A stretch of 64,000 nt of DNA from Devosia sp. 66-14 (GTDB taxonomy: Bacteria; Pseudomonadota; Alphaproteobacteria; Rhizobiales; Devosiaceae), in NCBI GenBank assembly GCA_001899085.1, contig MKVB01000002.1, positions 847,167 through 911,166 of the forward strand, read 5' to 3'. This document shows positions 35,580 through 64,000 of this stretch, piece after piece. Under the pieces are notes generated by a model. That model did not search any database, was not told where the DNA came from, and worked only from the letters and a program-made list of their open reading frames with translations. The position numbers and the translations under genes are program-made. The first letter of the stretch is position 1. Each line of letters starts with the position of its first letter.

Positions 35580-35658
35580 AGGGCACGATGGCTCGACCGC
35601 CCCCTCCCATCGGCAGAGGGGCCGCCGCCTGCGTTTTCTATGCCTTGGGCGCCCCCGC

Positions 35659-47509: not shown

Positions 47510-47563
47510 TAGCTCGAACGGCGCCGTCGGCAGCAGGCTGACGGTGCCGGTCGCTCCGCGGCT

Positions 47564-48916: not shown

Positions 48917-48925
48917 CCCGCGACA

Positions 48926-50467
48926 TCAAGCCGGAGGCCACTGGAAGCCGGTCTCCTGCTTCTTTTCGACGATGTCGCCCTGGAATTCGAACTCGAAGCT
49001 CCAGGCGAACTCGGCGGGAAAGTTCTTGCGGTACTGCGCCCGGCCGAACTGCGGGAAATCGCCGACAATGGCGTGCCCGAACTGGGTGACCGGATCGTTG
49101 CGCTCCTCGTTCCGCGTCATGGGGAACTGGTGGCAGCCGATGCAACTGGTCCGGCCGTTGCCGGGGTGGGTTTCGACATTGGGGTTGCTGCACCAGGAGG
49201 TCTGGTGGTCGTAGGGGGCGGCGGCCGGCGTGAGGGCATGGGGCAGCTCTATCGGCGTCGGCACCGGGTCGAACAGCAGCGCCAGCGCCGCAGGGTCCGA
49301 TTGCGAGCCGCTGTCGATCTCCGCCTGGATCGCGTCATAGACCGCCTTCAGCGATGCGGCGAGGCCGGGCTTGCCCGGCTCGTAGCTGGACCAGGGGGTG
49401 GGATCGGCTTCGGCGAAGGCCGAGCTGACGCAAAGCTTGTAGTTCTTCCACACGCCGTTGTTGAAGTTGGCGAGGCTCGCGGGCTGATCGCTGCCGAAAT
49501 CCTCGGTGGCGGCGTTCGGATCCCACCACAGCGACACCCACACCCACTCGCGCACATCCTTGGTGACGAAGTGGATGCTGCGCAGCCCGTAGGCGACGTT
49601 GCTGGTGGTGAAGTTGGTATAGATCTGGTCCTGCGTCGGCGTCCGCCTGGTGCCGGCGGGCCAGGTGCCGATCCTGAACATGTCGGTGAGCGCCGGTCCG
49701 CTGGTATCGTGCTCGGGGATACCGTTCTGCAGCTTCGCCCAGGAGGTCTTGACCATCACCGCGGAGCGGGGGAACTCGCTGATGCAGTTGGAGAACTGAT
49801 CCGCACTCGGCGGCGGATCGGCGGCCGCTGCCGTTCGCCCGCACTCGTCGATGCCGCGGGCCTCGTGCAGCACGTGCTCGACGAATGACGGACTGAAGCT
49901 GGTGAAGCCGCGGCCCAGCCGGTCCGACAGTCCCTGCATGCCGGTGTCGCGGAACTGCAGCAACTCCTGGGACAGGCTGTCGTCGGTCAGGGTGTCGCTG
50001 AGGTTCTTTTCGGAGAAGGCCTGCATCGTCTCGGCAATCACCGGGCCGACATCGGCGCTGGGATTGGCGGCGAGAACCGGCTTCAGCTTGCTGAAGTAAA
50101 GGCCGAGCAGCGGCGCGACCTCGCTCTTGCTGCCGCCCTCATACCAGGTCTGCCATAGCGGCACCTCCACCGAGGTCGCGCCGTCGAGCAGGGTGATGGT
50201 CTGCGGCGCCAGCATCTTCTCGACCACCGCCCAGCCGAAATCACGTCGCTTCTGCATCGAGGACGCGAGGTCGGCAGCGAGGATCGCCGGATCGGTGGGA
50301 TCGGGCACGTAATCGGCGCCGCGCCCGATCGCGAGACGCCCTTCCGGGTCTGCGGCGATCTCGGGAGGGGCGGCGGAAAGGACTGCCTGGGCACTGACAT
50401 GGGTGCCGGTCAAGGCGAGCGCGAGGCAGGTTGCAATGGCAGAGGCGAGGCCAACATTCCACGTCAT
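48926..50467 (-). CDS. Secreted protein with one C-terminal c-type haem motif
   Basis: A 513-residue periplasmic protein with signal peptide (GLASAIATCLALALTGTHVS). Most of the chain (30-430) is of no family I recognise, rich in Trp/Tyr and with cysteines in IDECGR, FSNCISE and LCVSS. The haem site SCIGCHQF has Cys442, Cys445 and His446, and a C-terminal tail follows with QFGRAQYRKNFPAEFAWSFE. Size and single CxxCH suggest an electron-transfer or oxidoreductase subunit. It lies 9 bases before the subtilase and 30 bases after the cytochrome-like gene, so the three are probably one operon. Confidence 0.7.
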   Translation of the reverse strand: MTWNVGLASAIATCLALALTGTHVSAQAVLSAAPPEIAADPEGRLAIGRGADYVPDPTDPAILAADLASSMQKRRDFGWAVVEKMLAPQTITLLDGATSVEVPLWQTWYEGGSKSEVAPLLGLYFSKLKPVLAANPSADVGPVIAETMQAFSEKNLSDTLTDDSLSQELLQFRDTGMQGLSDRLGRGFTSFSPSFVEHVLHEARGIDECGRTAAAADPPPSADQFSNCISEFPRSAVMVKTSWAKLQNGIPEHDTSGPALTDMFRIGTWPAGTRRTPTQDQIYTNFTTSNVAYGLRSIHFVTKDVREWVWVSLWWDPNAATEDFGSDQPASLANFNNGVWKNYKLCVSSAFAEADPTPWSSYEPGKPGLAASLKAVYDAIQAEIDSGSQSDPAALALLFDPVPTPIELPHALTPAAAPYDHQTSWCSNPNVETHPGNGRTSCIGCHQFPMTRNEERNDPVTQFGHAIVGDFPQFGRAQYRKNFPAEFAWSFEFEFQGDIVEKKQETGFQWPPA

Positions 50468-50497
50468 GGTCGTTCTCCCTTGCGCCGAAGCGCGCGA

Positions 50498-51139
50498 TCA
50501 GGCGGGCATCTGTGCAGCGATCCAGTCGTCGAACTTCTTGATGTCCTCGGGGGGCCACAGCCCGTCGCAAGGCATATCGTCCTTCAGCCGCTCCGAAATC
50601 AGCGCGGCCCTCGATTTGACGTCGTCGTAGTTGTGCAGGTCGAAGCCGGCGGCGGCCCGCATGGCGTTCACGTCGCGCGGGCGGAACATCGGTTTGATGT
50701 CGGCTTCGAAGCTCAGTGCCGCAGGCGTATCGGGCACCACGGTTGCCACCGCCCTCGGCGAGCTTTTCCGGCTGAGCTCGATGGCCTCGTCGTGCGGCAC
50801 GATCTCGACGGTCTTGGCGTTGTTGGCGGCGGCGACCCGGATGCCGACCAGCCGCACACCCGGGGCCCAGAAGTTGGCGATGTCGACATCGGCCAGCTCG
50901 AGATGGGCGTTAATCGGGGTGATGACCTGCAGAATCAGGCTTGAGGCGGCCGGGGCGTTGGCGCTGAAATCGAACGCGAGGATGCCATCGGGCGGCGCGG
51001 CGGCGGAAGCTCTTCTGGCCAGGCTTGCGGCACTCCAACCGGTCGTTGGCACCTTACCCGTTGCAAGTATTGATATTGTTGACCGAACACCTCCAGCAAT
51101 CCGAACGGTAACCTCATCCACGGCCATGACGATTGGCAC
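50498..51139 (-). CDS. Protein with haem-less cytochrome-c-like C-terminal module
   Basis: A 213-residue protein. The first about 135 residues form an unrecognised beta-rich domain (VTVRIAGGVRSTISIL, SLILQVITPINAHLELADVD). The last about 70 residues contain FEADIKPMFRPRDVNAMRAA, GFDLHNYDDVKSRAALISER and MPCDGLWPPEDIKKFDDWIA. This has the order of a small cytochrome c domain (DI.PIF, then FDL..YDDV, then MP.DG.W, then WI), but the CxxCH haem site is replaced by RDVNAM. The GTG at 51139 has AAGGAGGG 5 bases upstream and is preferred over ATG 51127. It is first in the operon with the haem protein and subtilase. Confidence 0.65.
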   Translation of the reverse strand: MPIVMAVDEVTVRIAGGVRSTISILATGKVPTTGWSAASLARRASAAAPPDGILAFDFSANAPAASSLILQVITPINAHLELADVDIANFWAPGVRLVGIRVAAANNAKTVEIVPHDEAIELSRKSSPRAVATVVPDTPAALSFEADIKPMFRPRDVNAMRAAAGFDLHNYDDVKSRAALISERLKDDMPCDGLWPPEDIKKFDDWIAAQMPA

Positions 51140-51389
51140 GACGCCCTCCTTGCTCAAGTTGTTACTTATATCGTGTTGTGCCGTATCTGCATCTGCATCG
51201 TTGTTCTGATTGGGCGAAATTCCTAGCGCAGGTATTGAAGTACAACAAGGGATCTGCTGAAATAATATACGCACCATCAGCTGTCAGGCACTGCTGCGGG
51301 GCAGTAAGGCGATGCGATTGCTGTGGTTCTTGGCTGCCGGGTGCCAGTTTTGGCCAGTTGGCCGGAAGAAGTCACGGCAAGGGGGGATT

Positions 51390-52418
51390 ATGCGAAGCAG
51401 ATTGGCGACGGCCGTGATGGCGCTCTGCATCTCGAGCCCGGCATTGGCAGCGGACAATGTCGGCGAGTTCATCGAGAAGGGCGGCGGAACCTGGATGACG
51501 GTGGACGGCGAGTTCAAGTACGTCACGACCGCACCGATCACCTATATCGATCCCAATGGCCTCGACTGGCCGGTGCCGACGGACTTTCCGTCGGACGGCG
51601 CGTCCATTCCCTGGCCGTTCTGGCCGGTGATCGGCCATCCGTTCGGCGGCGAGTATGTGTGGGCGGCCTTCGTCCATGACTTCTATTGCGAAAGGCAGGT
51701 CCGCACCGAGGAGGCGACCCACCGAACCTTCTATTATGCGGCGCGATCCATGGGGGTCGAGGACTGGAAGGCGGATCTGATGTACTGGGCGGTCGCCACG
51801 TTTGGTCCGCACTGGACGCTGCAGACGGACAAGCAGCCGGTGCGGACCTGCAGGGTCTCGTTCGGGCACCAGATCTGCGATCTCTCATGGGAGACGCCGG
51901 CCGCGCCCCCTCAGATGATTGATTTCAACGATGATATCCTGCGAGCAGCGGCGCTGTCGAAGTTCGTGGCTGTGGCCCGCACCCTGAAGACGACCGGTGG
52001 GGCTGCGTTCGACGTGACCGCGGATGGGCCGGTCACCACCTCGATCGACAATATCGAAGCCAGCGCGGCCGCCTATCGCGAACTCTTCCTGACGCGGCAG
52101 GTCCTGACCCAGCCGGAGGCCCTCGGCCTGCTCGATGACTACCGGGCCGGAACCACCCTCGAGACGCTGAGGAGTTGGCCCAATGGCGAGGTGCCGGAAT
52201 TCAACGCGGTGGCGCGGTGGTCGCCCAACCTGTCGGGGAGCCTCGATGGCGGCTTCGTGCTGGACCAGACGCAGCTGACCGAGTGGACGGTCGACAGCGC
52301 GTTGATGGAAGCGCAGCGGCTCAACGAGATCATGAAAAATCCAACGCCGAACGAGTTGGTGCTGATGCAGAAGATCCAGGAACTGCAGCAATTCCAGCTG
52401 CCGGCGTCCGGGCAGTGA
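51390..52418 (+). CDS. Secreted DUF1353-domain protein
   Basis: A 342-residue protein with signal peptide (MRSRLATAVMALCISSPALA). The DUF1353 region (about residues 25-150) contains WPVPTDFPSDGASIPWPFWP, YVWAAFVHDFYCERQVRTEE and HRTFYYAARSMGVEDWKADL. The SDGASIP and HD motifs are the family core and look like a metal or catalytic site. The C-terminal about 170 residues are unrecognised and helical. ATG 51390 follows AAGGGGGG; the frame is open to 51312. DUF1353 is usually a small phage-type protein, so this long secreted version is unusual. It is divergent from the cytochrome/subtilase operon. Confidence 0.7.
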   Translation: MRSRLATAVMALCISSPALAADNVGEFIEKGGGTWMTVDGEFKYVTTAPITYIDPNGLDWPVPTDFPSDGASIPWPFWPVIGHPFGGEYVWAAFVHDFYCERQVRTEEATHRTFYYAARSMGVEDWKADLMYWAVATFGPHWTLQTDKQPVRTCRVSFGHQICDLSWETPAAPPQMIDFNDDILRAAALSKFVAVARTLKTTGGAAFDVTADGPVTTSIDNIEASAAAYRELFLTRQVLTQPEALGLLDDYRAGTTLETLRSWPNGEVPEFNAVARWSPNLSGSLDGGFVLDQTQLTEWTVDSALMEAQRLNEIMKNPTPNELVLMQKIQELQQFQLPASGQ

Positions 52419-52738
52419 GGCAGGAGGGGACCTGACTCGGTCAGCTCCAGTTCACGGCCGGCGGGAGCTTCGTTGATCGGCTCCTGGCGCGGCGGACGCG
52501 CAGAGGACCGCAGAGGCCGAAGACCTGCCGCGAAGCGCTGACGCGCTCCCGCCCACATTGACGAATCGCCTGGCCCGCCACCATCCTGAACGTGGCGTGG
52601 CCTGACGCCGAACCTCCCTGACCAGCCCCAGCATGGTCTGCAACGGAGGCAAAGGGACATCTGGTCTCGGGTTCATCGTTATGTCCCGATCGCGCGGACG
52701 CCTGTTGCTGGGGAACGACGTCCACGCGCGAGGATGAC
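52419..52738. other. Intergenic region without recognisable gene
   Basis: This 320-base gap lies between the DUF1353 gene and the nitrilase-fold gene. It contains no protein-like frame, clear hairpin or repeat. The ribosome binding site of the next gene (GAGGA) is at its end. Confidence 0.5.
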
Positions 52739-53713
52739 ATGACACAGAACCACAATTTCAAGCGCCGCGTGCGCGAGCGCGCTGCCAAAACCGGCGAGTC
52801 CTATACCAGCGCGCTGCGCCATCTCGGCAAGGGCCCCGATAGCGGAGGTGCGCCCAATTCCATTCGACTGGCGGTGGCCCAGAGCACCGGCCGGCTCGAC
52901 CCGGCCAATGCCGCAGAGCTGCGCGCCGCGGGAGCCGAGGCGCGGGCGCTGATGCAAGAGGCGCGGCGGGCAGGGGCGCGGATCCTCCAGTTCTCGGAGG
53001 GCTCGATGTGCTCGCCCGACAAGCGGCTCGTCTCATCGCTCGGGCCTGAGAGCGTCGGCCCGGCCGACTGGACGCGCTGCAACTGGGATCTGCTGCGCGA
53101 AGAAATCGCGGCGGTATGCCGGTCGGCGCGCGAGCTGGGCCTGTGGGTGGTGATCGGCGCACCGCACCGGCTGACGGCGCGCCGCCCGCATAGCAGCCTC
53201 TACGTGATCTCCGACCAGGGGGAATTGGTCACCCGCTATGACGAGCGGATGCTCTCCAACACCAAGCTCTCCTTCATGTACACGCCGGGGTCGGTGCCGG
53301 TGACCTTCGAGGTCGATCACATGCGCTTCGGCTGCACGCTCGGCATGGAGGCGCACTACCCCGAGCTGTTCATCGAATATGAAAAGCTCAACGTCGATTG
53401 CGTGCTGTTCTCGACCACCGGCGGCGGCCCGTTCGCCGCCGAGATCGCCGGGCACGCCGCCAGCAACAGCTTCTGGACCAGCTTCGCCGTGCACGCCCAG
53501 CACAGCACCGAAGCACCGGCCGGCATCGTCGCCCCCAACGGCACCTGGGTGGCCCGCGCCGTCGCCGGCCTCACCCCGATGCTGACGGTGGCGGAAATCT
53601 CGACCGACCCCCTGAACCCGGCGCGGCCCTGGCGCCGCACCGCCAGGCAGGGGCTCTACCAGGACCATCTGGCGGTCGATGATCAGAGAAGCGCCGAACG
53701 CACGGTGCTTTAG
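52739..53713 (+). CDS. Nitrilase-superfamily protein lacking two catalytic residues
   Basis: A 324-residue carbon-nitrogen hydrolase-fold protein preceded by a short basic extension (FKRRVRERAAKTGESYTSAL, residues 7-26). The nitrilase fold is seen in IRLAVAQSTGRLDPANAAEL, ARILQFSEGS (Glu87 in the catalytic Glu position), RELGLWVVIGAPHR, and a C-terminal ASNSFWTSFAVHAQ. The position of the catalytic Lys holds Glu169 (RYDERML instead of YxK), and the nucleophile Cys position holds Gly202 (GCTLGMEAHYPE instead of ICYE), though Cys199 is three residues earlier. It may be inactive, use other chemistry, or have a shifted nucleophile. A strong terminator follows. Confidence 0.72.
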   Translation: MTQNHNFKRRVRERAAKTGESYTSALRHLGKGPDSGGAPNSIRLAVAQSTGRLDPANAAELRAAGAEARALMQEARRAGARILQFSEGSMCSPDKRLVSSLGPESVGPADWTRCNWDLLREEIAAVCRSARELGLWVVIGAPHRLTARRPHSSLYVISDQGELVTRYDERMLSNTKLSFMYTPGSVPVTFEVDHMRFGCTLGMEAHYPELFIEYEKLNVDCVLFSTTGGGPFAAEIAGHAASNSFWTSFAVHAQHSTEAPAGIVAPNGTWVARAVAGLTPMLTVAEISTDPLNPARPWRRTARQGLYQDHLAVDDQRSAERTVL

Positions 53714-53720
53714 GGCAGGG

Positions 53721-53749
53721 GCCGGTGCGGGCGCGCTGCCCGCGCCGGC
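53721..53749 (+). terminator. Intrinsic terminator of the nitrilase-fold gene
   Basis: A 12-bp stem GCCGGTGCGGGC / GCCCGCGCCGGC (one G-T pair) with a 5-base loop is followed by TTTGCTGTT. It lies 8 bases after the stop. Confidence 0.75.
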
Positions 53750-53955
53750 TTTGCTGTTCGATGGGCGGCGGTTCGTGTTGGTGCCGAGGACCGCGGTGAA
53801 TGGCCGGTGTTGGCCCGAAGCGGTCACTTACGACCTGAGACAGCCGTCGGCGCGCAAAGTTCATCCGTTGCCACGATGCGGCGAGCTCGGGTTCGGATGC
53901 TGTACCGGACGCGATCGCGCGGCGGCGTGCCGGAGCCCGGCGTGTGCCGCTCCGG

Positions 53956-54945
53956 CTAGGTCTTGCTCAGCCGCGCAAGCACCGCATCCGTCACGTCGGT
54001 GCCGAGACGATAGGAAAATGCAGTGACACTCGTAAGGTCGTCGCTGAGCGTGCAGTCGAAAGCGAGGCCATACCACCTTTCTCCGGAGCGGAAGATCGCG
54101 CCGCTCGCCGCGAGGTGTGTGCCCGTCATCTCCGACCTGGCATAGGCTTCCGCCATCACCACGTCGGGCGTGAAGCGTTCCCCGGCATTGCCGATCTGGG
54201 CCAGGGCCTCAATGTTGCAGGTTTGCGCCAGCCGCTTGTCGGGCGGCAGCGTTTCGAGCATCGCGCGCGCCCGCGCCATGCTGGGAACACTCAGCATCGC
54301 CTCGAGATAGAAGCGTTTGGCGCTGCGCCGCGCGCCTAGCTCAAGGGTCGCGACATCGGGCTCCGCCAACGGAGCCGGCGGAGCTGTTCCTTCCGCCATC
54401 TCGCCAGTGTCGGCCGTGAGTGCGGTAACAGCCCCGTCCGGCACGCTGGTTGGGGCGGCCAGCCCCCTCACTTTGGGACGCGACAGGGGTATCGGCGCCA
54501 CCTCTGCTGAGGCGGTATCCGAACTCCGCACCGGCTCCGATGCTGCGGTGGCGGGGGCCTTGGATACGGTCTTTGCGGCTGCCGTTTCGGATGGCGGTTC
54601 GGGCGGAGACGGCTTTGCCGCCGATTTAGCTGGAGCAGTTGCTTGCTCTGCCGGTGGCGGTTCGGCTGGGGGCGTCTTGGCCGGCGGCAAGGTCGCCGCC
54701 GAAGCCTCCTCCTTTGGCTCCTCCGCAGGCGGCTCGCTGGCGCTGATCGCCTCGGGCGGCGGCACCAGTTCCACGTCGATGGCCGGCGGTGGTGCGGCTT
54801 CGGCGCTGTCAGGCGGCGGCTGCCAGAGCAAGAACGCCAGCACCCCAACATGCAGCATTGCTGAAGCCATCGTGCCCCAGACGGCCCATGGGGTACGCCT
54901 TGGCGGCTCGGGGAGCGTCGGCTCTGGCGGCGTGACTTCGCTCAT
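53956..54945 (-). CDS. DUF930-domain protein with TonB-like N-terminus
   Basis: A 329-residue membrane-anchored protein. A short cytoplasmic Pro-rich start is followed by one transmembrane segment (about 23-40, WGTMASAMLHVGVLAFLLWQ). A long Pro/Ala/Glu-rich linker (about 45-165) spans the periplasm, as in TonB-like proteins. The C-terminal DUF930 domain has KRFYLEAMLSVPSMARARAM, LPPDKRLAQTCNIEALAQIG and a C-terminal YGLAFDCTLSDD. DUF930 is typical for Hyphomicrobiales and its function is unknown. The stop lies inside an imperfect hairpin (53929-53956). Confidence 0.82.
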   Translation of the reverse strand: MSEVTPPEPTLPEPPRRTPWAVWGTMASAMLHVGVLAFLLWQPPPDSAEAAPPPAIDVELVPPPEAISASEPPAEEPKEEASAATLPPAKTPPAEPPPAEQATAPAKSAAKPSPPEPPSETAAAKTVSKAPATAASEPVRSSDTASAEVAPIPLSRPKVRGLAAPTSVPDGAVTALTADTGEMAEGTAPPAPLAEPDVATLELGARRSAKRFYLEAMLSVPSMARARAMLETLPPDKRLAQTCNIEALAQIGNAGERFTPDVVMAEAYARSEMTGTHLAASGAIFRSGERWYGLAFDCTLSDDLTSVTAFSYRLGTDVTDAVLARLSKT

Positions 54946-55063
54946 GGTTCAGCCTGCCATGACGATTGTGGGCTTTCGGTGGGGATGAGCAAGAACATTT
55001 TCGCTCGCGAGGGACTTACTGCCAATGGCCAGAAGGGGCCCGGATAATGCTGGGGCGCATGGG

Positions 55064-55089
55064 CGTCCGCTTCTGGCGCGAAGCGGACG
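55064..55089. repeat. CGTCCGCTTC hairpin repeat, copy 1
   Basis: CGTCCGCTTC and GAAGCGGACG form a 10-bp stem with a 6-base loop. A closely similar element is at 57427-57460. Translated on the minus strand these give the VRFAPEAD-like peptide known from dispersed intergenic repeats. Confidence 0.65.
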
Positions 55090-55145
55090 TCTCTTCTAAA
55101 ACATGCAACTCCCGGACTTGCGAGCAAGGTGGCCCCGCGCGTCCA

Positions 55146-55171
55146 TCACAGCCGCGGGTCCACCGGTTCGC
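55146..55171 (+). repeat. 26-bp direct repeat of the pnkp 3' end, copy 1 (outer)
   Basis: It is identical to the last 26 bases of pnkp (57473-57498) except for one base (C for G at the 16th position). Read on the minus strand it encodes EPVDPRL and a stop; the difference is synonymous (GTG for GTC). It marks the left border of the accessory island. Confidence 0.8.
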
Positions 55172-55261
55172 CGCGTGTGCGATCGGGCTGCCAAAACCGG
55201 CGAATCCTATGCCAGCCGCACCGCTCTCTCCGACTTCGCCCGTCGGTATTCTCGCCGGTGA
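55172..55261 (+). pseudogene. Gene fragment with AAKTGESY motif
   Basis: The frame reads RVCDRAAKTGESYASRTALS followed by DFARRYSRR and TGA at 55259. Bases 55187-55216 match 52781-52810 in the nitrilase-fold gene at 28 of 30 positions, covering its AAKTGESY extension. There is no good start codon with a ribosome binding site, and the left end abuts the 26-bp repeat. It is most likely a remnant of a gene with the same N-terminal module, cut by the insertion. A tiny real peptide from GTG 55175 is possible. Confidence 0.5.
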
Positions 55262-55320
55262 GTAGGGTGGTGGGCACTTGGCCGAACGGCTACTCTGTCT
55301 ACCGTTGCGAGGAAATTGCC

Positions 55321-55905
55321 TTGGACAGAAGCGAGATCAGGACGTTGTTACGACACGCCGCCAAGTTTCGGCAGAACGTCGTCTCGCTTTTTGGCGCAGA
55401 TGCTCCAGAGAGTGCCGCACTTTTGATTGGCGCGCTCGATCAGGAACGCGAGGACTTTTCACGACTCAGTTTGTACCAAGGGGCGGTCACCGAATGCCTG
55501 ATCACAGGTCACGTCACGGCGGCAGAGCGCATCGCGGTTGCAGCCCATGAAGAGGTTCAGGACATTTTCTCGCTCCTGGCACTTTCAAACACCCTGACTG
55601 ATGTCGGAAAACCCTTGCAGGGACTTGCGCATGCCAAGGCGGCGCTTGCCCAGGCAATGAGTGAACAGTCGCTTGTGAACTATGCCGCGGGCAACATGAT
55701 GCGCCAGGCCATCAAGACCGGGTCGGCAGATGTAGTGAATGAAGCCCTTGATGCTCTGGTTGATTCAACCCAAGTCCCTCGCACAGCAGACTGTGCCCTG
55801 GAAACGGACTGGATCGAGGCGGCGAATGCGCTGGGAGCCGACAAGAAGCTCACAGATTGGGTTCGCGCAGTCTCGAAGAAAAAGGGCTTCCGAGCCAAAC
55901 GGTGA
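55321..55905 (+). CDS. Hypothetical helical protein in pnkp-flanking island
   Basis: A 194-residue protein of no recognised family, predicted mostly alpha-helical. ALLIGALDQEREDFSRLSLY, HVTAAERIAVAAHEEVQDIF and LQGLAHAKAALAQAMSEQSL look like short helical repeats of TPR style. It ends in a basic KKKGFRAKR. The TTG at 55321 has GAGGA about 10 bases upstream; the frame is open to 55129, but the upstream part overlaps the repeat. Base composition is visibly more AT-rich than that of neighbouring genes, suggesting acquisition. Its place beside an immunity-type gene suggests a similar role, unproven. Confidence 0.6.
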   Translation: MDRSEIRTLLRHAAKFRQNVVSLFGADAPESAALLIGALDQEREDFSRLSLYQGAVTECLITGHVTAAERIAVAAHEEVQDIFSLLALSNTLTDVGKPLQGLAHAKAALAQAMSEQSLVNYAAGNMMRQAIKTGSADVVNEALDALVDSTQVPRTADCALETDWIEAANALGADKKLTDWVRAVSKKKGFRAKR

Positions 55906-56014
55906 GGCCGCCGCAAGTGCCTCGAACCGCCGCGGCACCCGGCGGCAACCTTGACTAACTTGGGTCCGCTATTGGTGCAAGGGAACCACGGTCACGGCGA
56001 GGAGGGCGGGTGCG

Positions 56015-56655
56015 ATGGCAGTTGATGCGATAGAAGCGGTGCAGGCAGGGTTCGGGTGGCAGGGTTTTCCCGATGCCATGTTCTATGAGGCCGCGTTTGG
56101 ACTTTGGTTCGAACTGGGCGGTGATCTCGATATGGGGCCGGTCCGCTTCCTCGAGGCGCTCGATCGAGCGAGGGCGGTGGCTGCCGAGTTGTTCTCGGGC
56201 TCGGAAACGCTCTGCGCCTTCGTTTCGATCTATGGCGGGCCGCGCGCGACCAGGCGGCAATGGAGCGCGCTGCGGCAGTTGCAGCACATGGGGTTTCGGC
56301 ATCCGTTCGGGCCGGCGAGCAAGGTGGGTTGAACGACGAAGAGCATATCGCCCAGTTTGGCGAGGACGTCTTTCGGTACTGCTATGCTGCGCCATTCGCA
56401 AAAGACGACGTAGCACTGGCTGCGCTGCTCTGGGCCAGTATTGCCAGGGAGATGGCGATCGGGCCCAAGGCCCGCTGGATCAGCAGGATACATATCGCCG
56501 ACCTGCAGAAGCGGCTTGTTCTGACCGCCTATGATGACCGGGGAATGGATGTCGCCGGGCCCGATCGGCTGGCGCTGCTGCCGCTCTACCGCAAGTTCAA
56601 CGCGTGGCTTCTCGATTATGACGGGGCCGCGATGGACGCGGAGTTCGCCGGTTGA
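56015..56655 (+). pseudogene. DUF3885-like gene split by a frameshift
   Basis: Two overlapping frames together make one DUF3885 protein. The first (ATG 56015 to TGA 56332) contains MFYEAAFGLWFELGGDLDMG and RFLEALDRARAVAAELFSGS, the family's N-terminal half. The second frame continues from about 56325 with LNDEEHIAQFGEDVF and ends in LTAYDDRGMDVAGPDRLALL and YRKFNAWLLDYDGAAMDAEF, the family's C-terminal half. Adding one G in the GGG near 56327-56329 would join them as ...KVGLNDEEH.... The break is either a real inactivating deletion or a sequencing error. DUF3885 proteins are of unknown function. Confidence 0.72.
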
Positions 56656-56674
56656 GGCGCCGCCCCCGCGCCCA

Positions 56675-56700
56675 TCACAGCCGCGGATCGACCGGTTCGC
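56675..56700 (+). repeat. 26-bp direct repeat of the pnkp 3' end, copy 2 (internal)
   Basis: It differs from the pnkp end at 57473-57498 by one base (A for G at the 13th position). On the minus strand it again encodes EPVDPRL-stop, with a synonymous GAT for GAC. It shares the preceding CGCG-CCCA bases with copy 1. It separates the DUF3885/hypothetical interval from the Imm11-like interval. Confidence 0.8.
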
Positions 56701-56758
56701 GTGATGCGCTGTCCGCGCCCGCCTGCCGTTGCCCCGAAGGCCGACACTCTACCCGACC

Positions 56759-57367
56759 TCAGTTTTCCGCCACTCTGACGAACTCGAGATTTCGGGCGCC
56801 GTGCGAAGTGATCACGTCCCGCAGTTCGTCGCTTACGAAGTGTTCCAGCGACTCCTCGTCCATCCACACCGCCTTGCCAGATACGGCTTCGTGGCGGACC
56901 ACGAACTGCGTGCCCGGCAGTCCAGACAGGGAGTATCCCTTGCGAGTTCCGCCGTCATGCAAACTGAACGGCACTGAGGACCTGTCGCCGTCAATCGCCC
57001 GAAGACGATTGCAGACGTTCAGCATGAAGTAATTCGTTCCGATGACCTGGTCTTTGTGCGGGGTCACCTTGAGAAGGGCGAACTGATGCACGCCGGGCTC
57101 AGCAGACTCGATTGCATCCTTAACCTGTTGCGACACTGCAAACCGTATCCGGCAGCTGAAGACGCAGACACTCCTCAGCGAGTTGAGCATTCGAACCTCG
57201 GTACAAAGCTCGGATGGATCGGGGATACGCCAGCCGTCCCGGAAGTCGACGCGGCGGGTTTCTCCGCCGGGATAGACCTGCCACACCTGCCAGGATTTCG
57301 CGTCGTCGACCAACTGCCCGACCACTACTCGCCCGTGCCCGTGGCTCATCTTCATGGTGTACGGCAT
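56759..57367 (-). CDS. Imm11 (DUF1629)-like immunity protein
   Basis: A 202-residue protein with the repeated pattern of Imm11/DUF1629. FAVSQQVKDAIESAEPGVHQ, then NYFMLNVCNRLRAIDGDRSS, the VVRHEAVSGKAVWMDEESLE segment, and FVSDELRDVITSHGARNLEF. Imm11 proteins neutralise toxins of polymorphic toxin or contact-dependent systems. ATG 57367 has GGAAG 8 bases upstream; 57382 is an alternative. No toxin gene is present nearby, so it is an orphan immunity gene located between two copies of the pnkp-end repeat. GC content is lower than in pnkp. Confidence 0.65.
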   Translation of the reverse strand: MPYTMKMSHGHGRVVVGQLVDDAKSWQVWQVYPGGETRRVDFRDGWRIPDPSELCTEVRMLNSLRSVCVFSCRIRFAVSQQVKDAIESAEPGVHQFALLKVTPHKDQVIGTNYFMLNVCNRLRAIDGDRSSVPFSLHDGGTRKGYSLSGLPGTQFVVRHEAVSGKAVWMDEESLEHFVSDELRDVITSHGARNLEFVRVAEN

Positions 57368-57426
57368 CGATACGCTTCCCAACCGCGGGGTTACAGTCTG
57401 GGGCCAGAGCTCTGAATGAAGTATCT

Positions 57427-57460
57427 CCAGCGTCCGCTTCCGGTGCGAAGCGGACGCTGG
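57427..57460. repeat. CGTCCGCTTC hairpin repeat, copy 2
   Basis: The 14-bp perfect stem CCAGCGTCCGCTTC / GAAGCGGACGCTGG has a 6-base loop and lies 13 bases beyond the pnkp stop. No T run follows on the pnkp side, so it is classed as a repeat that may also stop transcription. It is similar to 55064-55089. Confidence 0.7.
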
Positions 57461-57472
57461 TTCGAAAGGATG

Positions 57473-57498
57473 TCACAGCCGCGGGTCGACCGGTTCGC
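57473..57498 (+). repeat. 26-bp direct repeat, copy 3 (genuine pnkp 3' end)
   Basis: These are the last eight codons plus two bases of pnkp. The same 26 bases, with one synonymous change each, occur at 55146 and 56675 in the same orientation. Confidence 0.85.
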
Positions 57499-60022
57499 TT
57501 TCCAGCGCGAGGAGCGCGAAGACGCATTCGTGGACCTGGCGGAGCGGGGCGCCGGCGGTGAAGCGGCGGAGGGCTTCGTGGCCCAGGGCGAACTCCTTGA
57601 GGGCGAGCGCGCGCTTTCGGCCGAGGCCGCGTTTGCGCAGGCGTTCCAGATGTTCGGGCAGGTCGTATTCGGGGCCGTAGATGATGCGCAGATATTCGGG
57701 GCCCCGCACCTTCAGCGCCGGCTGCAGCAGGCCCTTGGCGCCGCGGGCGGTGAAATCGAGCGGCTTCACCACCATGCCCTCGCCGCCGGCGGCGACCAGC
57801 TCTTCCCACCATTGGCAGCCCGCAGCGCTGGAGCTGTCATCGGCCAGCGCCACTTCCAGGGTGCGGGTGCGCGTGAGGAGGCCGCTGCCCGCTTCGGCCA
57901 GCCGATCGGCCAGCGCCATGTGCCAGCGATGGTCGCGTCCGAAATGGACGGCGCCTTCGCTGGCGAGCAGGTGGAAGGGCGCGACCTCGAGATCGTCGAT
58001 GCCGTCGACCGGCCAGGCATAGGGGGCCCAGGCCTTGCCGTAGCGGATGGCGCGATCGAGGCGCTGGGCGAAGCGCGCTTCGAGCCCGCCCGTGTCGACG
58101 CCATGCGCGCTGGCCGCCGCGATGGCCGCCGTGGCAGCGCTGAGGCTGTCGACCGCCGCTGTCGCAACCGGTTCGTACTGGCCGGCGATGAGGCTCGAGG
58201 CCTTCGCCGACCAGGGCATGATCTCGGCGTCGAGCAGCAGCCAGTCGGTGCCCAGTTCGTCCCATAGGCCCGCCGCATCGGCGGCCTGCCGGAGGCGGGC
58301 CAGCACGGCGTCGCGTACCGCCGGGGCGAAGAAGGCGCGACCGGTGCGGGTCCAGATCTGGCCGGCCTCGTCGCCGATGACGCCGAAGCGGCGGCGGGCG
58401 ACCTGATCGTCGCGGCATAGCGCGATCACGGCGCGCGAGCCCATGTGCTTTTCCTCGAGCATGACGCTCGCCTGGCCGCGCTCGCGGAAATAGGCGAAGG
58501 CCTGTTCGGGGCGTTCGAGATAGCCGGCGGCGGTGCTGGTTTCGACCGGCGACATGGTGGGCGGCAGGTAGACCAGCCATTGCGGGGCGATGGCGAAACG
58601 GCTCATCACCTCGAGCGCCGCGGCGGCGTTCTCCTCGGCCACCACGACCCGGCGCATCAGCTCGGTATCGACGAAACGCCGGCCGCCGACATCGGCATAG
58701 TCGAGCATCCGGTCGGCTTCGGCCTGGCCGGTGAGGGCGTCGGCGGCGGCGAGGAACGGCCGCGCCGGCTCGGCATAGACGCGCGCGGCGGGCACGGCGA
58801 CCAGCTCGCGCTCGGGCCAGCGGAGCGCCGTGAGCTTGCCGCCGAACACGCAGCCGGTGTCGATGTCGATGGTGTTGTTGACCCACTCGGCCTCGGGCAC
58901 CGGGGTGTGGCCATAGACCACCGTGGTCTTGCCGCGATACTCGGCGGCCCAGTCGAGGCGGACGGGGAGGCCGAAAGCGTCGATTTCGCCGCTGGTTTCG
59001 CCATAAAGCGCGAACTCGCGCACGGCGCCCGAACCGCGGCCGATCAGCTCCTCCTTGAGACCGGCATGGGCGACGGCGAGGCGGCCGCCGGCGAGCCAGT
59101 AATGGCTGCGCAGCTCATCGAGGAAGCGTCGCGCCTCATTGCGGAATTCTGGCGTTTCGCGGCCGAACTGCTCGATCGACTGTTCCAGCCCGTGCGCCAC
59201 CTTGACGTCGCGGCCAGCGAGCCAGCGGCTGAGCTTCTGGTCGTGGTTGCCCTGGACGCAATAGCCGACCCCGTCGCGCAGCGCCGCCATGACGAGACGC
59301 AGCACGCCCGGCGTATCGGGGCCGCGATCGACGAGGTCGCCGACGAAGACCAGCTTGCGGCTCTGCGGCGCGATGACCTGCGGCGCCTCGGGCGAGCCGT
59401 CGATGCGGTAGCCGAGCCGCTCAAGCAGCAGGCGCAGCTCGTCGGCGCAGCCATGCACATCGCCGATAATGTCGAACGGGCCCTGGTCCTGCCGCTGGTC
59501 GGTCCAGAGCGGGCGGCGATCGATGCTGGCGGCGTCGATCTCGGCGACCGAACTCAGCCGCCAGACCTGGCGAAACCCCTCGCGCTGCAGGCCGGTGAAG
59601 CCGCGGCGGATTTCCTGCACCATGCGCTGCGGCACGGCCGGGCCGAAATCGCGGTTGGGCCGGGCGCGGTTGCGCTCGATGCAGATATCGGCGCCGGGGT
59701 CGACGACGATGGCGACGGGCAGGGCGTGGTAGCGCCGCGCCAGTTCGACCCAGCGCCGGCGATCGGCGGCGCGGACATTGGTGGCGTCGATAACGGCGAG
59801 CCGGCGGTTCTTCAACCGTTTGCCGGCAATGGCCTCGACCAGGTCGAAGGCGTCGGCGGTTGCCGACTGGTCGGTCTCGTCGTCGGCGACGAGGGCGCGG
59901 CTGTGATCGGACGAGACGATCTCGGTGGGCAGGAACCAGCGCGAGGCGAAGGTGGATTTGCCCGAACCGGTGGCGCCGATCAGCACGACGAGGCTGAAAT
60001 CGGGGATATCGAGCACGCTCAT
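57473..60022 (-). CDS. pnkp: Polynucleotide kinase-phosphatase (RNA repair)
   Basis: An 849-residue bacterial Pnkp with three modules. The N-terminal 5'-OH polynucleotide kinase has P-loop GATGSGKST (16-24). The central metallophosphoesterase has GDVHGC (Asp188, His190), VFVGDLVDRGPDTPG and VQGNHDQKLS. The C-terminal ligase-like adenylyltransferase has nucleophile Lys525 in EEKHMGSRAV, then GEGMVVKPLDF and HECVFALLALESEPVDPRL at the end. It heals broken RNA ends (5' phosphorylation, 3' phosphate removal) and works with Hen1, whose stop overlaps its ATG by 4 bases. The three-base-precise reuse of its 3' end in the neighbouring island is unusual. Confidence 0.93.
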   Translation of the reverse strand: MSVLDIPDFSLVVLIGATGSGKSTFASRWFLPTEIVSSDHSRALVADDETDQSATADAFDLVEAIAGKRLKNRRLAVIDATNVRAADRRRWVELARRYHALPVAIVVDPGADICIERNRARPNRDFGPAVPQRMVQEIRRGFTGLQREGFRQVWRLSSVAEIDAASIDRRPLWTDQRQDQGPFDIIGDVHGCADELRLLLERLGYRIDGSPEAPQVIAPQSRKLVFVGDLVDRGPDTPGVLRLVMAALRDGVGYCVQGNHDQKLSRWLAGRDVKVAHGLEQSIEQFGRETPEFRNEARRFLDELRSHYWLAGGRLAVAHAGLKEELIGRGSGAVREFALYGETSGEIDAFGLPVRLDWAAEYRGKTTVVYGHTPVPEAEWVNNTIDIDTGCVFGGKLTALRWPERELVAVPAARVYAEPARPFLAAADALTGQAEADRMLDYADVGGRRFVDTELMRRVVVAEENAAAALEVMSRFAIAPQWLVYLPPTMSPVETSTAAGYLERPEQAFAYFRERGQASVMLEEKHMGSRAVIALCRDDQVARRRFGVIGDEAGQIWTRTGRAFFAPAVRDAVLARLRQAADAAGLWDELGTDWLLLDAEIMPWSAKASSLIAGQYEPVATAAVDSLSAATAAIAAASAHGVDTGGLEARFAQRLDRAIRYGKAWAPYAWPVDGIDDLEVAPFHLLASEGAVHFGRDHRWHMALADRLAEAGSGLLTRTRTLEVALADDSSSAAGCQWWEELVAAGGEGMVVKPLDFTARGAKGLLQPALKVRGPEYLRIIYGPEYDLPEHLERLRKRGLGRKRALALKEFALGHEALRRFTAGAPLRQVHECVFALLALESEPVDPRL

Positions 60023-61395
60023 CTGCGAAACACCGCGAGCTGGGTGAGGGCGCCATGCTCGGCGTGGGGCTCGCCGACGCCTTCGATCTCGAGGCTGTAG
60101 CCATGGCGGGCCGCCACCGCCTCGGCCCAGTCGCGGAACTGGGCGCGGGTCCATTCGAAGCGGTGGTCGGAGTGGCGGAAGGCGCCGGCGCTGAGCCCAT
60201 CGAACAGCACGTTGTAATCGGCGTTCGGGGTGGTGACGACAATGGTGCGGAAACCGGCGCTGCCGAAGACCACCGCCTCGACCGCCGGCAGGCGGTCGGG
60301 CTCGATATGCTCGATCACCTCGACCAGGGCGGCCGCGTCAGTGCCGGCCCAGCGGGGATCGCGGTAGGTGAGGGCGCCCTGCAGCAGGCTGACGCGGTCC
60401 GCCTTGGGGCCGCCGGGCAGGCCGAGCTTGAGGTTTTCCGAAGCGCGCCGCAGCGACTGCATCGAGACATCGACGCCGAGAATCCGGCCGAGCGCCGGGA
60501 GCTTCAGCAGCCGGCGCAGCAACTTGCCTTCACCACAGCCGAGATCGGCAACCGAGGTGGCGCCGCTCTGGCGGATGATTTCGGCGGCGCGATCGAGGCG
60601 GAGATCGTGGGTGTTGAGCCGGGCCTCGACGATCGCCTCGGGCTGCAGCGGCGCCTCGTCCTCGATCTCGGCTTCCGGTTCGGCGGCGGCGAGGCGATCG
60701 AGCGCCGCCCGGTAGAGCTTGCGCCGGTCCTTGAGATAGCGGCGGGCGATGGTATCGCGTTCGGGGTGGGCCGACAGCCAGGCACCGCCCTTGGCCAGCA
60801 GCTTTTCCACCTCGTCGTCGCCGACCCAGTAATGCTTGTCGGAATCGAGCACCGGGATCAGCACATAGAGATGCGACAGGGCGTCGGCGAGCCGCAGGGT
60901 GCCGGCGATGGTCAGCGCCACATAGCGGGAGGGCGTGCCGGCCGGCGTCGGCAGCGCTGCGGCCGTGACCTGCCAGCCGAGCGGCGCGAACAGCCGCTCC
61001 ACCAGCTCGGCGCCACCCTGCGCCGGCAGCGGGCGGACGGTGATTTCGAGCGGAATGGCGCTGTCGGCGAGCGGCTGGCGCTCGCGCGAGGTGCCCGCCA
61101 TGGCGGTGCGAAACACCCGGTTGAGCGCCACGCTGAGCAGCGACGACGCGGCATACGGACGATCGTTGACATACTGGTCGAGCAGGCCCTCGGTCTGGCC
61201 GCGCCCCCGCACCAGCTCGATCGGGTCGACCTCGAGCAGCAGCACCGCCTCGCAGCGCTCGGCGCCGGCTTCAGGAAACAGCACATAGGACCGACCGAAG
61301 GCGTGCTCGGTCTCGTGCACGCGTCCGGGATGCTTCATCAGGAGATAGCCGAGATCGGTCGCCGGCTGGTGGGTGGTGGCAATAGACAGAAACAT
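60019..61395 (-). CDS. hen1: 3'-terminal RNA ribose 2'-O-methyltransferase Hen1
   Basis: A 458-residue Hen1. The N-terminal about 240 residues are the bacterial Hen1 ligase-activating region (DLGYLLMKHPGRVHETEHAF, then ERQPLADSAIPLEI and YLKDRRKLYRAALDRL). The C-terminal methyltransferase has VADLGCGEGKLLRRLL and the metal-binding EVIEHIEPDRL (Glu359, Glu362, His363). It continues with TTPNADYN and FRHSDHRFEW, which supplies a further His. It methylates the 2'-OH at the damaged RNA 3' end before sealing by Pnkp. I chose ATG 61395; a TTG is directly before it. The stop overlaps the pnkp start (ATGA), so the two are one operon. Confidence 0.93.
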   Translation of the reverse strand: MFLSIATTHQPATDLGYLLMKHPGRVHETEHAFGRSYVLFPEAGAERCEAVLLLEVDPIELVRGRGQTEGLLDQYVNDRPYAASSLLSVALNRVFRTAMAGTSRERQPLADSAIPLEITVRPLPAQGGAELVERLFAPLGWQVTAAALPTPAGTPSRYVALTIAGTLRLADALSHLYVLIPVLDSDKHYWVGDDEVEKLLAKGGAWLSAHPERDTIARRYLKDRRKLYRAALDRLAAAEPEAEIEDEAPLQPEAIVEARLNTHDLRLDRAAEIIRQSGATSVADLGCGEGKLLRRLLKLPALGRILGVDVSMQSLRRASENLKLGLPGGPKADRVSLLQGALTYRDPRWAGTDAAALVEVIEHIEPDRLPAVEAVVFGSAGFRTIVVTTPNADYNVLFDGLSAGAFRHSDHRFEWTRAQFRDWAEAVAARHGYSLEIEGVGEPHAEHGALTQLAVFRR

Positions 61396-61571
61396 CAATC
61401 CGGCCCAAAGGTCTTTATTTGACAGTTCGGGGCGCGATTGTCTCGCCTGAAGTGTACTGGCGACCGATGGTGTCGTTACTTTGCCCGCCGGTTCGCGATG
61501 GTCATGGGTGACCAGTTGACACCGGCCAGCTCCGGCCCCTCACTGGCCTCGAGACTGCACGGGGGGCTGGA

Positions 61572-62018
61572 TTGAAACACTTGGCGTCGGCATGGCTTGC
61601 CGTCCTCGTCGTCTCCGCGCTGACCGTCGCAGCTCAATCGTGCTCAGTGGTGCGGAGTGGCGACGTGCTGCAACACCTTGAGGATGCCGGCTTTCCCGTG
61701 GCGCTGCTGGGCAAAGCGCACGTGGCGGAACTCAAAGACTACAGCGACTTCCTCCGGTGTGAACCGCTGTTCCGTTCCGATGAGGCCTGGTCACTTTCTG
61801 CTTCCCGCCAGTTGGACGACGTCTATTGGGAGACGGTCGTTTTCAGCGTCTTCGCCTTTCCGACCCATGCCGCCGCCGTTGCCGAGATCGGCGAGCGGAC
61901 GTCCTGGGAGGCCCATGCCAGGGACAACCCTGACACCGACATCTATTACTACCTCGAGCCTCGAAGCAGCACGGCGTTCAAGGTGAGCCGGGCGCGCCAC
62001 ACACTGGGAGAGGAATGA
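61572..62018 (+). CDS. Small secreted hypothetical protein
   Basis: A 148-residue protein with an N-terminal signal (MKHLASAWLAVLVVSALTVA), followed by AQSCSVV. A Cys right after the hydrophobic part could be a lipidation site, but the -3 residue is Ala rather than Leu, so this is weak. The mature part contains DVLQHLEDAGFPVALLGKAH and many aromatic residues (DIYYYLEP). The start is TTG 61572 with a G-rich segment upstream. No family is recognised. It stands alone between two oppositely oriented operons. Confidence 0.6.
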   Translation: MKHLASAWLAVLVVSALTVAAQSCSVVRSGDVLQHLEDAGFPVALLGKAHVAELKDYSDFLRCEPLFRSDEAWSLSASRQLDDVYWETVVFSVFAFPTHAAAVAEIGERTSWEAHARDNPDTDIYYYLEPRSSTAFKVSRARHTLGEE

Positions 62019-62045
62019 GGCTCAGCCGACGCCTGTCTCCCCGCG

Positions 62046-62618
62046 TTATCGCCTCGGCTCATAGCGCAGCACGATGGCGCCGGAGGTGAGGTCCTTGCGG
62101 TCGATGGGCTTGAGCTCGACATATTTCGAGAGCCCGGCGAACAGGGTGGGGCCGTGGCCGGCAAGCCGGGGCTGCACCACGAACTCGTACTCGTCGATCA
62201 GGCCCAGTTCGGCCAGCGCCAGCGGCAGCTGCACGCCGCCGGTGAGCAGGCCCTTGCCGGGCTGCTGCTTCAGCGCCGTGACCGCCGCCTCGAGGTTGCC
62301 GCTGATCAGTTCGGCGTTCCAATCCACCTGGCCGAGCGTGCTGGAGACGACGTATTTGGGCATCGCGTCGATGGTGCGGGCGAACGGGTCGGTCCACTCG
62401 GGCGGCTTCGAGGTGCGCGTCGCCAGCCGCCAGGCGCCCTCCATCATGCCGTAGGTGACGCGGCCGAACAGCAGCGCGTCCACCCGGCTGATGGTCTGGG
62501 TGGCGTGCAGGTGCGTCGCGCGCAGCGTCGCCTCCTGCAGCGCCGGCTCGGACGGAATGGCGTTGTGGTGGACGCACCCATCGAGCGTCACGTTGATGGA
62601 ATAGATCAGGGGTCGCAT
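62046..62618 (-). CDS. RibD C-terminal/dihydrofolate-reductase-like protein
   Basis: A 190-residue protein of the RibD_C/DHFR-like family. MRPLIYSINVTLDGCV at the start, DALLFGRVTYGMMEGAW, PKYVVSSTLGQVDWNAELIS and GLLTGGVQLPLALAELGLID are the usual NADPH-fold elements. Members of this small-protein group are annotated as dihydrofolate reductases but their real substrates are mostly unknown. The ATG at 62618 overlaps the SRPBCC stop (TGATG). It is the last gene of the ArsR-SRPBCC-RibD operon. Confidence 0.82.
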   Translation of the reverse strand: MRPLIYSINVTLDGCVHHNAIPSEPALQEATLRATHLHATQTISRVDALLFGRVTYGMMEGAWRLATRTSKPPEWTDPFARTIDAMPKYVVSSTLGQVDWNAELISGNLEAAVTALKQQPGKGLLTGGVQLPLALAELGLIDEYEFVVQPRLAGHGPTLFAGLSKYVELKPIDRKDLTSGAIVLRYEPRR

Positions 62619-63136
62619 CAGGTCTGTTGCTCCTTGGTGGCGCGCGCCGCGAGGGCCCGCTCGAACCGGTCCAGCTGGGTGTTGAGCGCCAGCACAGCGC
62701 CGCGCGTCATTTCGGGGTCGGGGTGCCGATCTGCCGTCAGCACCATGCGGACGCGCCCGGCCTCGACGGAGAGCTCGACCAGCATGTCGTAGGGGTAGGA
62801 CTCGACGCCGGGGACGAAATCGATATCGAAGCGGATGCGCAGCCTTTGCTGCGGCTCGACCTCGAGGAAGCGGCCGCTCACCCAGGCCGTGGTCGGCCGG
62901 CCGAGATTGGTCAGATAGGCGACCTGCTCGGGCCCCACCGCGGTCATCACGTGATCGAAGCTGCCGCCGACCCACAGTTCGAGCACCGAGACCTCGAAGC
63001 GCATGCCTTCGGGCGCGAACCATGCCTCGAGCCCCTCCCTGGTGGTCCACAGGGCCCAGACATCCTCGATCGCGGCGTCATAGACCCGCTCGAAGCTGAT
63101 GGTGGCGGCCCCCAGTTCGGTTGCGAGAGCCTTCAT
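62618..63136 (-). CDS. SRPBCC (AHSA1-like) protein
   Basis: A 172-residue START/SRPBCC-fold protein. SFERVYDAAIEDVWALWTTR, GLEAWFAPEGMRFEVSVLEL and GGSFDHVMTAVG are typical for the Aha1/SRPBCC group, which binds small hydrophobic ligands in a deep cavity. It overlaps the ArsR stop (ATGA) and the next gene's start, so the three proteins are translationally coupled. This ArsR-SRPBCC pairing is common in soil bacteria; the ligand is unknown. Confidence 0.85.
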   Translation of the reverse strand: MKALATELGAATISFERVYDAAIEDVWALWTTREGLEAWFAPEGMRFEVSVLELWVGGSFDHVMTAVGPEQVAYLTNLGRPTTAWVSGRFLEVEPQQRLRIRFDIDFVPGVESYPYDMLVELSVEAGRVRMVLTADRHPDPEMTRGAVLALNTQLDRFERALAARATKEQQT

Positions 63137-63471
63137 TTCGGTTCCTCGCCATCGGCTGGTTTACGCCGACGCGCCAGCGCCGCGTCGAAGCGATCGAGCC
63201 GGTTCTCCCAGAGCTTCCGGTAGCTCGCGATCCACGTGTCGATCGCCCGGAACGGCTCGGCCCTGAGCGAATAGAGCCGCCTCGCGCCATCGGGCCGCAT
63301 GGTGACGAAGCCGGCTTCGCCGAGGATGCGGAGGTGCCGCGACACCCCGGACTGATCGATATCGACGGCACGAACCAGCTCGCCCACCGCCTGCTCACCA
63401 CCCGCCAGCGCCTCGACAATGCGAAACCGCGTCGGGTCGGAGAGGATCTGGAATACGCTCTCTTGCATCAT
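63133..63471 (-). CDS. ArsR-family transcriptional repressor
   Basis: A 112-residue winged-helix repressor. It begins MMQESVFQILSDPTRFRIVE, then QAVGELVRAVDIDQSGVSRH, then LRILGEAGFVTMRPDGARR with a wing LYSLRAEPFRAIDTW. The usual ArsR metal Cys pair (ELCVCDL) is absent, so it is probably not arsenic-responsive. The ATG at 63471 lies within an 11-bp direct repeat that may be its operator. It heads the operon with the SRPBCC and RibD-like genes and probably represses it. Confidence 0.85.
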   Translation of the reverse strand: MMQESVFQILSDPTRFRIVEALAGGEQAVGELVRAVDIDQSGVSRHLRILGEAGFVTMRPDGARRLYSLRAEPFRAIDTWIASYRKLWENRLDRFDAALARRRKPADGEEPK

Positions 63472-63496
63472 GGTGCATATGTATGATGGTGCATAT
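63470..63496. promoter_or_regulatory. 11-bp direct repeat at the ArsR start, operator candidate
   Basis: ATGGTGCATAT occurs at 63470-63480 and again at 63486-63496, overlapping the ArsR start codon. The region is AT-rich compared with its surroundings. Autoregulation by the ArsR protein is the likely use, inferred from the position. Confidence 0.5.
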
Positions 63497-63664
63497 ATCG
63501 AGTCAAGCCGGTGAGCGGCGGCGGTGCGGCGTAGCATGCGGAGAGCGACCGTCTTTGGTCCAAACCGGAACATTCGACAGCGGGAGTTGTCACACCTGCG
63601 ACGATGCTGGACCGGCAGCTCCGCCGGGTGTTCACTCGCCTCGCCGACCGGAGGAGGGAATGGC

Positions 63665-64000
63665 ATGCAGACCGTCGTTCCAGATCTCGACGATGTTCCG
63701 CGCCTGCGACAGCTGATGCAGGCCACGTTCACGGAGACATTTGGACATCTCTATCCTGCGAGGGACCTGGCCGCCTATCTCGAGCATGCATATTCACCTG
63801 AGGCGGTGACAGCCGAGATACTCGCTCCGTCCAATTTCTGGCGGATGGTGCTGGGGGACGACGGCCAGCCTGCCGCATATCTCGAGTGTGTGCCGGGCCA
63901 CTTGCCGCACCCGCGATGCGCCCCGGAGCATGGGGAGATCAAGCGCATCTACGTGCTCAAGAGCCACCAGGGCAACGGCCTGGGCAACCAGCTGATGCAG
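63665..64000 (+). CDS. GNAT-family N-acetyltransferase (N-terminal part, cut by window edge)
   Basis: 112 codons from ATG 63665 to the window end without a stop. The start has GGAGGAGGGA 6-15 bases upstream. RLRQLMQATFTETFGHLYPA is the N-terminal helix and LAPSNFWRMVLGDDGQPAAY covers the central strands. EIKRIYVLKSHQGNGLGNQL is the acetyl-CoA-binding motif A (Q-x-x-G-x-G). It transfers an acetyl group to an unknown amine. It is divergent from the ArsR operon across a 193-base gap in which I see only the ArsR direct repeat. Confidence 0.8.
   Translation, partial: MQTVVPDLDDVPRLRQLMQATFTETFGHLYPARDLAAYLEHAYSPEAVTAEILAPSNFWRMVLGDDGQPAAYLECVPGHLPHPRCAPEHGEIKRIYVLKSHQGNGLGNQLMQ

Follow-up and report, generated by a model that had tools for sequence, protein, structure and literature searches.

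In the type VI clusters of Vibrio cholerae, arrays of immunity genes have been proposed to arise by sequential displacement of effectors (PMC5361080). Islands also occur in tandem at the 3' end of trmE, where, as the cited account describes, they target the same attachment (att) site and include relatives of SGI1 (PMC9035990). Here we describe a locus of Devosia sp. 66-14 at which the last 26 bases of pnkp, a gene for an RNA-repair enzyme, are repeated twice beyond the gene and frame small inserts of other DNA. The locus lies in a stretch of 64,000 nucleotides (the window) covering positions 847,167-911,166 of the forward strand of contig MKVB01000002.1 (GCA_001899085.1); the contig (C2) is 916 kb long and the whole genome 5.72 Mb. 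Integron cassette arrays gain accessory genes serially at one place, as this locus appears to have done; at pnkp the repeated unit is instead a coding gene end. We know of no case in which pnkp serves as an integration target, and a literature search combining pnkp with integration-site terms found no mention of the gene in the 8 papers listed out of 457, a limited search that is no proof of absence.

Among described cases, the tandem islands at trmE come closest to the pnkp locus. They resemble it in being inserted at the 3' end of a gene for a protein of RNA metabolism, in their short direct repeats and in the placing of tandem elements on one att site. They differ in carrying an integrase, in their size (two tandem islands measure 17.3 and 23.7 kb) and in an att site of 18 bp (PMC9035990), whereas the inserts here are of 0.8 and 1.5 kb, no integrase was found and the target is pnkp. 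The V. cholerae arrays, as reported, are similar in having the newest unit by the conserved part, older units and a displaced 3' end further outward, and passengers of immunity type. There, however, displacement affects an effector that has an immunity gene of its own (PMC5361080), while at the present locus the tails, short and uniform, are those of a gene for RNA repair. Islands at dusA share the use of an RNA-metabolism gene as integration target but, in the cited description, insert at its 5' end and with an integrase (PMC4482086). The gene and its repeated ends are as follows.

57473..60022, minus strand: pnkp, polynucleotide kinase-phosphatase-ligase (TIGR04075, 1312.7 bits against a cut-off of 750; PF16542 and others)
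57473..57498, minus strand: copy 3, the functional 3' end of pnkp, with two bases of a Ser codon, EPVDPRL and the stop codon (sequence, translation)
56675..56700, minus strand: copy 2 of the pnkp tail, with a silent change of GAC to GAT (sequence comparison, genome scan)
55146..55171, minus strand: copy 1 of the pnkp tail, with a silent change of GTC to GTG (sequence comparison, genome scan)
56663..56674, minus strand: 12-nucleotide extension past the stop codon at copy 2, starting 8 nucleotides after the DUF3885 stop codon (alignment)
55134..55145, minus strand: 12-nucleotide extension past the stop codon at copy 1, like that of copy 2 in 10 of 12 positions (alignment)

All three 26-bp copies are on the same strand, with start-to-start distances of 1529 and 798. 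The original prediction, made from the sequence alone, had reported the last 26 bases of pnkp twice to the left in the same orientation (55146-55171 and 56675-56700), with one mismatch each and at intervals of about 1.5 and 0.8 kb, and all of this was verified. Copy 1 and copy 2 have one difference each from the pnkp end and two between themselves. The edges are exact. On the gene side all three copies diverge at a single base (C, G and T after ...GGTTCGC), and on the far side the likeness of copies 1 and 2 to copy 3 ceases precisely with the stop codon; once the 12-nucleotide extension is included, copies 1 and 2 are alike in 34 of 38 bases. Both mismatches are silent third-position changes in the EPVDPRL tail. 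Such silent-only changes in a conserved tail are expected if each copy formerly served as a working tail, and the simplest reading of them would be that each copy was once a working gene end.

A genome-wide scan allowing up to three mismatches finds the 26-mer at these three sites alone, which rules out a genome-wide repeat family. The 26-mer has no match in any of 18 other genomes of the genus, and the arrangement is present in 0 of the 18. The sequence is thus not scattered through the genome and the arrangement is not conserved in relatives, the two outcomes that the original prediction had named as contrary to insertion. In 2000 Markov-resampled regions of 3473 nucleotides, the best match to the 26-mer had at least 6 mismatches (6 once and 7 seventeen times), compared with two sites with 1 mismatch in the real region. 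The scan and the simulation together exclude a chance origin of the copies. It is therefore scarcely credible that copies 1 and 2 are chance matches or separately decayed whole pnkp genes: the high conservation of the pnkp tail would favour this, but decay is not expected to leave the same 26 bases twice without any adjoining gene body.

We also surveyed 864 kb of this genome, made up of the window and three stretches (400, 140 and 260 kb), for repeats of at least 24 bases and at least 90% identity, 200-4000 bp apart, reaching the stop codon of an open reading frame (ORF) of at least 150 amino acids. The only other duplicated gene end was one pair in tandem paralogues resembling outer-membrane proteins (named by eye). 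A general habit of duplicating gene ends was therefore rejected for the 864 kb, this one pair apart; the remaining repeats of the survey, 78 of them in the 400-kb stretch, were not individually inspected.

The framed DNA and its surroundings contain the following features.

55258..55905, plus strand: hypothetical gene, with genus homologues at other loci (67-73% amino-acid identity)
56015..56655, plus strand: DUF3885 gene split by a frameshift into pieces 56015-56332 and 56260-56655 (Pfam)
56759..57382, minus strand: Imm11-family gene (PF07791, expectation value (E) 5.8e-18)
60019..61398, minus strand: hen1, 3'-terminal RNA ribose 2'-O-methyltransferase (TIGR04074, 619 bits against a cut-off of 340)
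53956..54945, minus strand: left flank, DUF930 gene (Pfam), in a region 81-89% conserved in five relatives
62044..63515, minus strand: right flank, common to the relative G004 (87%; alignment)

The interval between copies 1 and 2 holds the hypothetical gene and the frameshifted DUF3885 gene, whose pieces lie in different frames (E 6.7e-7 and 3e-20), and that between copies 2 and 3 holds the Imm11-family gene. The gene content given in the original prediction (a hypothetical gene, a broken DUF3885 gene and an Imm11-like gene) is confirmed by these Pfam matches. For the hypothetical gene itself, the one Pfam match is below threshold (0.045) and NCBIfam gives none. Relatives of this gene occur in three other genus genomes and at a second locus in this one, with similarity limited to about the coding region. 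DUF3885 scores above the cut-off in one of the 19 genus genomes, this one, and a search of 396 other genomes of the order at E <= 1e-8 gives relatives of Imm11 in 2. On these distributions the framed genes are accessory. The framed intervals are also richer in A and T than the DNA around them: their guanine plus cytosine (GC) content is 61.5% (copies 1-2) and 60.5% (copies 2-3), compared with 70.7% for pnkp (about 70% for pnkp and hen1) and 67-68% for the DUF930 and right flanks.

Searches for the passengers elsewhere gave little. In a tblastn comparison of the Imm11, DUF3885 and hypothetical proteins with 175 loci outside this genome, the only hits were a DUF3885 relic in G004 (see below) and, for the hypothetical gene, the homologues already known in the genus, and neither the Imm11 protein nor the hypothetical protein had a match in plasmids. 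The hypothetical gene was rejected as a repeat-bounded cassette elsewhere: no pair of repeats of at least 20 bases at 80% identity or more surrounds it at any of its four other loci. At one locus (L152) there is a 73% pair of 48 nucleotides, one on each side. PADLOC gave only weak matches, to pnkp and hen1 (the first DUF3885 piece was not included). Since both inserts are flanked by direct repeats, a transposon-like element with long target-site duplications might be considered. We regard it as very improbable: the repeat lengths differ (26 and 38), no transposase is recognised by Pfam or NCBIfam and the repeats coincide with a gene end.

The explanation that we favour, tentatively and as falling a little short of probable, is serial insertion at the pnkp tail, most likely by recombination at a fixed short gene-end site. 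It is supported by the identical gene-side base, the edge at the stop codon, the silent changes, the lack of any other site in the genome, the AT-richer framed DNA and the accessory genes. A fixed site is favoured because the gene-side edges are identical. We infer an order of events, a site-specific reaction and an absent enzyme as follows. A small tandem array would have grown outward from the pnkp 3' end as foreign DNA was joined to the tail twice. The last 26 bases would arrive with each incoming DNA in a version of their own and would form the new working end of pnkp, and the old tail would remain at the far edge of the insert. The first insertion would have added the interval between tails 1 and 2, which holds the hypothetical gene and DUF3885, and a later one the Imm11 interval (tails 2 and 3). 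The joining reaction would most likely resemble that of islands driven by an integrase into tRNA genes or the 3' end of trmE, the enzyme having acted in trans or since been lost. The pnkp reading frame is intact, at full length and with its conserved tail. In a bolder form, the 26-bp tail would be a reusable recombination joint that collects conflict-type accessory genes beside an RNA-repair operon without an integrase of its own, the newcomers supplying a synonymous tail; this we consider unlikely.

A number of results weigh against serial insertion. No PF00589 recombinase is encoded on the 916-kb contig; all ten matches in the genome, one of them below the cut-off, are on other contigs, and other recombinase families were not searched. 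Pfam and NCBIfam recognise no mobility gene in the 0.8- and 1.5-kb inserts. Viral contigs contain no exact match to a 25-base core taken from the tail. Among 91 further pnkp loci (90 distinct sequences), none was found to repeat its own pnkp tail within 5 mismatches in the available flanking DNA (at least 5 kb downstream for 63 loci and less than 1.6 kb for 16), one degenerate tandem excepted. Nor is there a recombinase family among the 25 commonest of the 141 Pfam families downstream of pnkp, in a scan of 142 of 162 ORFs from 90 loci (at most two ORFs each, within 2.6 kb) in which a single recombinase could escape notice. The repeat is of unequal length in the two pairs, 38 and 26. With just two changes, and with the third positions of the opposite-strand frame falling on those bases too, the silence of the changes proves little on its own. 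Low GC is not specific to the inserts, since an ORF beyond hen1 (61572-62018) is also low at 62.2%. Two further points come from the neighbourhood. A piece of a nearby gene abuts copy 1:

55169..55216, plus strand: scrap that matches the CN-hydrolase gene at 52739 over codons 9-24 with 90% identity (alignment)

This scrap is 48 bp long and overlaps copy 1 by three bases; its source (52763-52810) is 2.4 kb to the left. In addition, G004, a genome without pnkp, carries an 88-bp DUF3885 relic at the corresponding place (G004:C1:771625-771712, L146), which implies a history more tangled than two clean insertions. The proposal of insertion into the pnkp 3' end with the frame restored therefore stands in part. 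The precise edges, the silent differences, the AT-richer DNA and the intact pnkp agree with it, while the missing recombinase, the missing viral match and the missing repeats at the 91 loci do not.

A virus as carrier was considered and rejected: besides the negative result for the 25-base core, a 21-base core has a single match, inside an ORF of a 4.8-kb viral contig among whose ORFs no pnkp was seen by eye, and we take this match as chance.

Several of these features are better accommodated by a serious, if somewhat unlikely, rival: sequential replacement without any integrase. Here an incoming pnkp allele with a new downstream gene would recombine by homology on the gene side and be joined illegitimately on the other, leaving the displaced tail behind. 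Homology to copy 3 would then end at the stop codon, coding sequence being kept and downstream DNA not, and the silent differences, the small inserts, the missing integrase and the cut scrap beside copy 1 would also be explained. The passengers include an immunity-family gene (Imm11), remnants of a 3' end lie between successive accessory genes (copies 1 and 2), as sequential displacement would leave them, and a published model includes a shifted-back 3' end of a displaced effector (PMC5361080). Replacement thus fits the stop-codon edge, the small inserts and the scrap better than serial insertion. It does not fit two breaks at one base: both remnants end at the identical base, which would be rare under random joining (n=2). 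Identity of pnkp to 11 relatives varies in parallel along the gene and gives no clear mosaic, a test weakened by the low identity (64.6-71.3%), and the 18 other genus genomes searched contain no other pnkp. Moreover, the passengers are not cognate immunity genes; the displaced gene is an RNA-repair enzyme and Imm11 is the sole immunity family. Serial insertion and replacement agree that the tails were pushed outward and that the newest insert adjoins pnkp.

The arrangement is real, exact and unusual. We regard it as a variant of gene-end insertion, seen in one genome, with the mechanism of insertion unproven. If serial insertion is true, foreign DNA would have a docking place in an RNA-repair operon as well as at tRNA genes and trmE, and a gene end could receive small inserts even where no integrase is resident. 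The locus would also be a clear case for separating the action of an integrase from integrase-free replacement, because the two mechanisms predict different break points in further strains.

Among the 19 genus genomes pnkp occurs only in this one, and matches in the rest cover pieces of the phosphatase domain. It was not found in the 18 others (14 of them at least 90% complete, with little contamination), so that there is neither an empty site nor a strain with different cassettes to compare. In the order it is present in 20 of 397 genomes at E <= 1e-100, this genome included and several being only partial matches; judged by these counts, the hen1-pnkp pair is sporadic. At the 91 other pnkp loci the tail reads EPVDPRL in 73 and EPIDPRL in 12. 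In Streptomyces sp. Root431 (L044) a degenerate copy of its own pnkp tail, with 5 mismatches, follows the stop codon at a distance of some tens of bases.

Two hairpins accompany the repeats.

55063..55089, no strand assigned: hairpin 1, lying upstream of the DUF930 gene and matching hairpin 2 at 25 of 27 bases
57427..57460, minus strand: hairpin 2, with a perfect 14-bp stem 12 nucleotides past the pnkp stop codon (27-base part 57430-57456; pattern search)

Hairpin 2 may end the pnkp transcript as a possible terminator. The pair is 2367 bp apart, hairpin 1 being left of copy 1 and hairpin 2 left of copy 3. Their exact form (TCCGCTT...AAGCGGA) occurs at these two places only in the genome, with two weaker ones on contig C6. 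Shuffles of the window give 0.07 matches on average compared with the 4 found (two sites on both strands). The reversed pattern, used as a control, also occurs at 2 places in the genome, so it is the proximity and likeness of the hairpins that are unusual and not their number. Their placing as a pair on either side of the repeats lends some support to a history of duplication. In such a history the DUF930-pnkp junction would have been duplicated or shuffled, a segment of hairpin and tail being copied around the insert by slipped or template-switching repair and one tail being recopied inside. The position of the genome's only two exact hairpins, each just left of a tail copy, is in keeping with this. 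On the other hand, the spacers between hairpin and tail are 56 and 16 nucleotides and little alike, copy 2 has no hairpin, the genomic count does not exceed that of the control, and duplication gives no reason for silent-only changes. We consider it quite unlikely.

In G004 the DUF3885 relic is truncated beside what appears to be half of a similar hairpin. This genome is the sole relative with both flanks found on one contig, in the same order with 19.8 kb between them and no pnkp. Left-flank homology in five relatives stops between 55000 and 55098, just before copy 1. Comparison of these sequences indicates that DUF3885 probably stood at the locus in the common ancestor, in which case either G004 lost pnkp or DUF3885 arrived first, and that the locus is a variable region.

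A transfer RNA target within the window was rejected: ARAGORN finds none in the window, and Rfam none at gathering score in 46000-64000. In three relatives (G002, G005 and G010) a tRNA-Pro gene abuts the DUF930 gene. A different arrangement is seen in this genome, G004 and G015, where the tRNA-Pro region is elsewhere and homology starts at, or within 3 bases of, the 3' end of the tRNA. The places concerned in this break in synteny between DUF930 and tRNA-Pro(TGG) are L147:11028-11104, G000:C10:3492-5866, G004:C1:4194878 and G015:C2:558522. Its position at or close to the 3' end of tRNA-Pro hints at an old insertion or rearrangement there.

Two further indels lie close to the locus. The segment 47508-53727, about 6.2 kb, corresponds to only 132 bp in G004 (783752 to 783620), close to an empty site, and in the reverse case about 9 kb of G004 correspond to 63 bp of the window (53823-53886). 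Palindrome-like repeats of about 40 bp and 98-100% identity lie 3554 bp apart at 9899-9999 and 13453-13553, with relatives in G002, G005 and G010. Further palindrome-like repeats are found near 11717-11910, 17049-17202 and 35357-35606.

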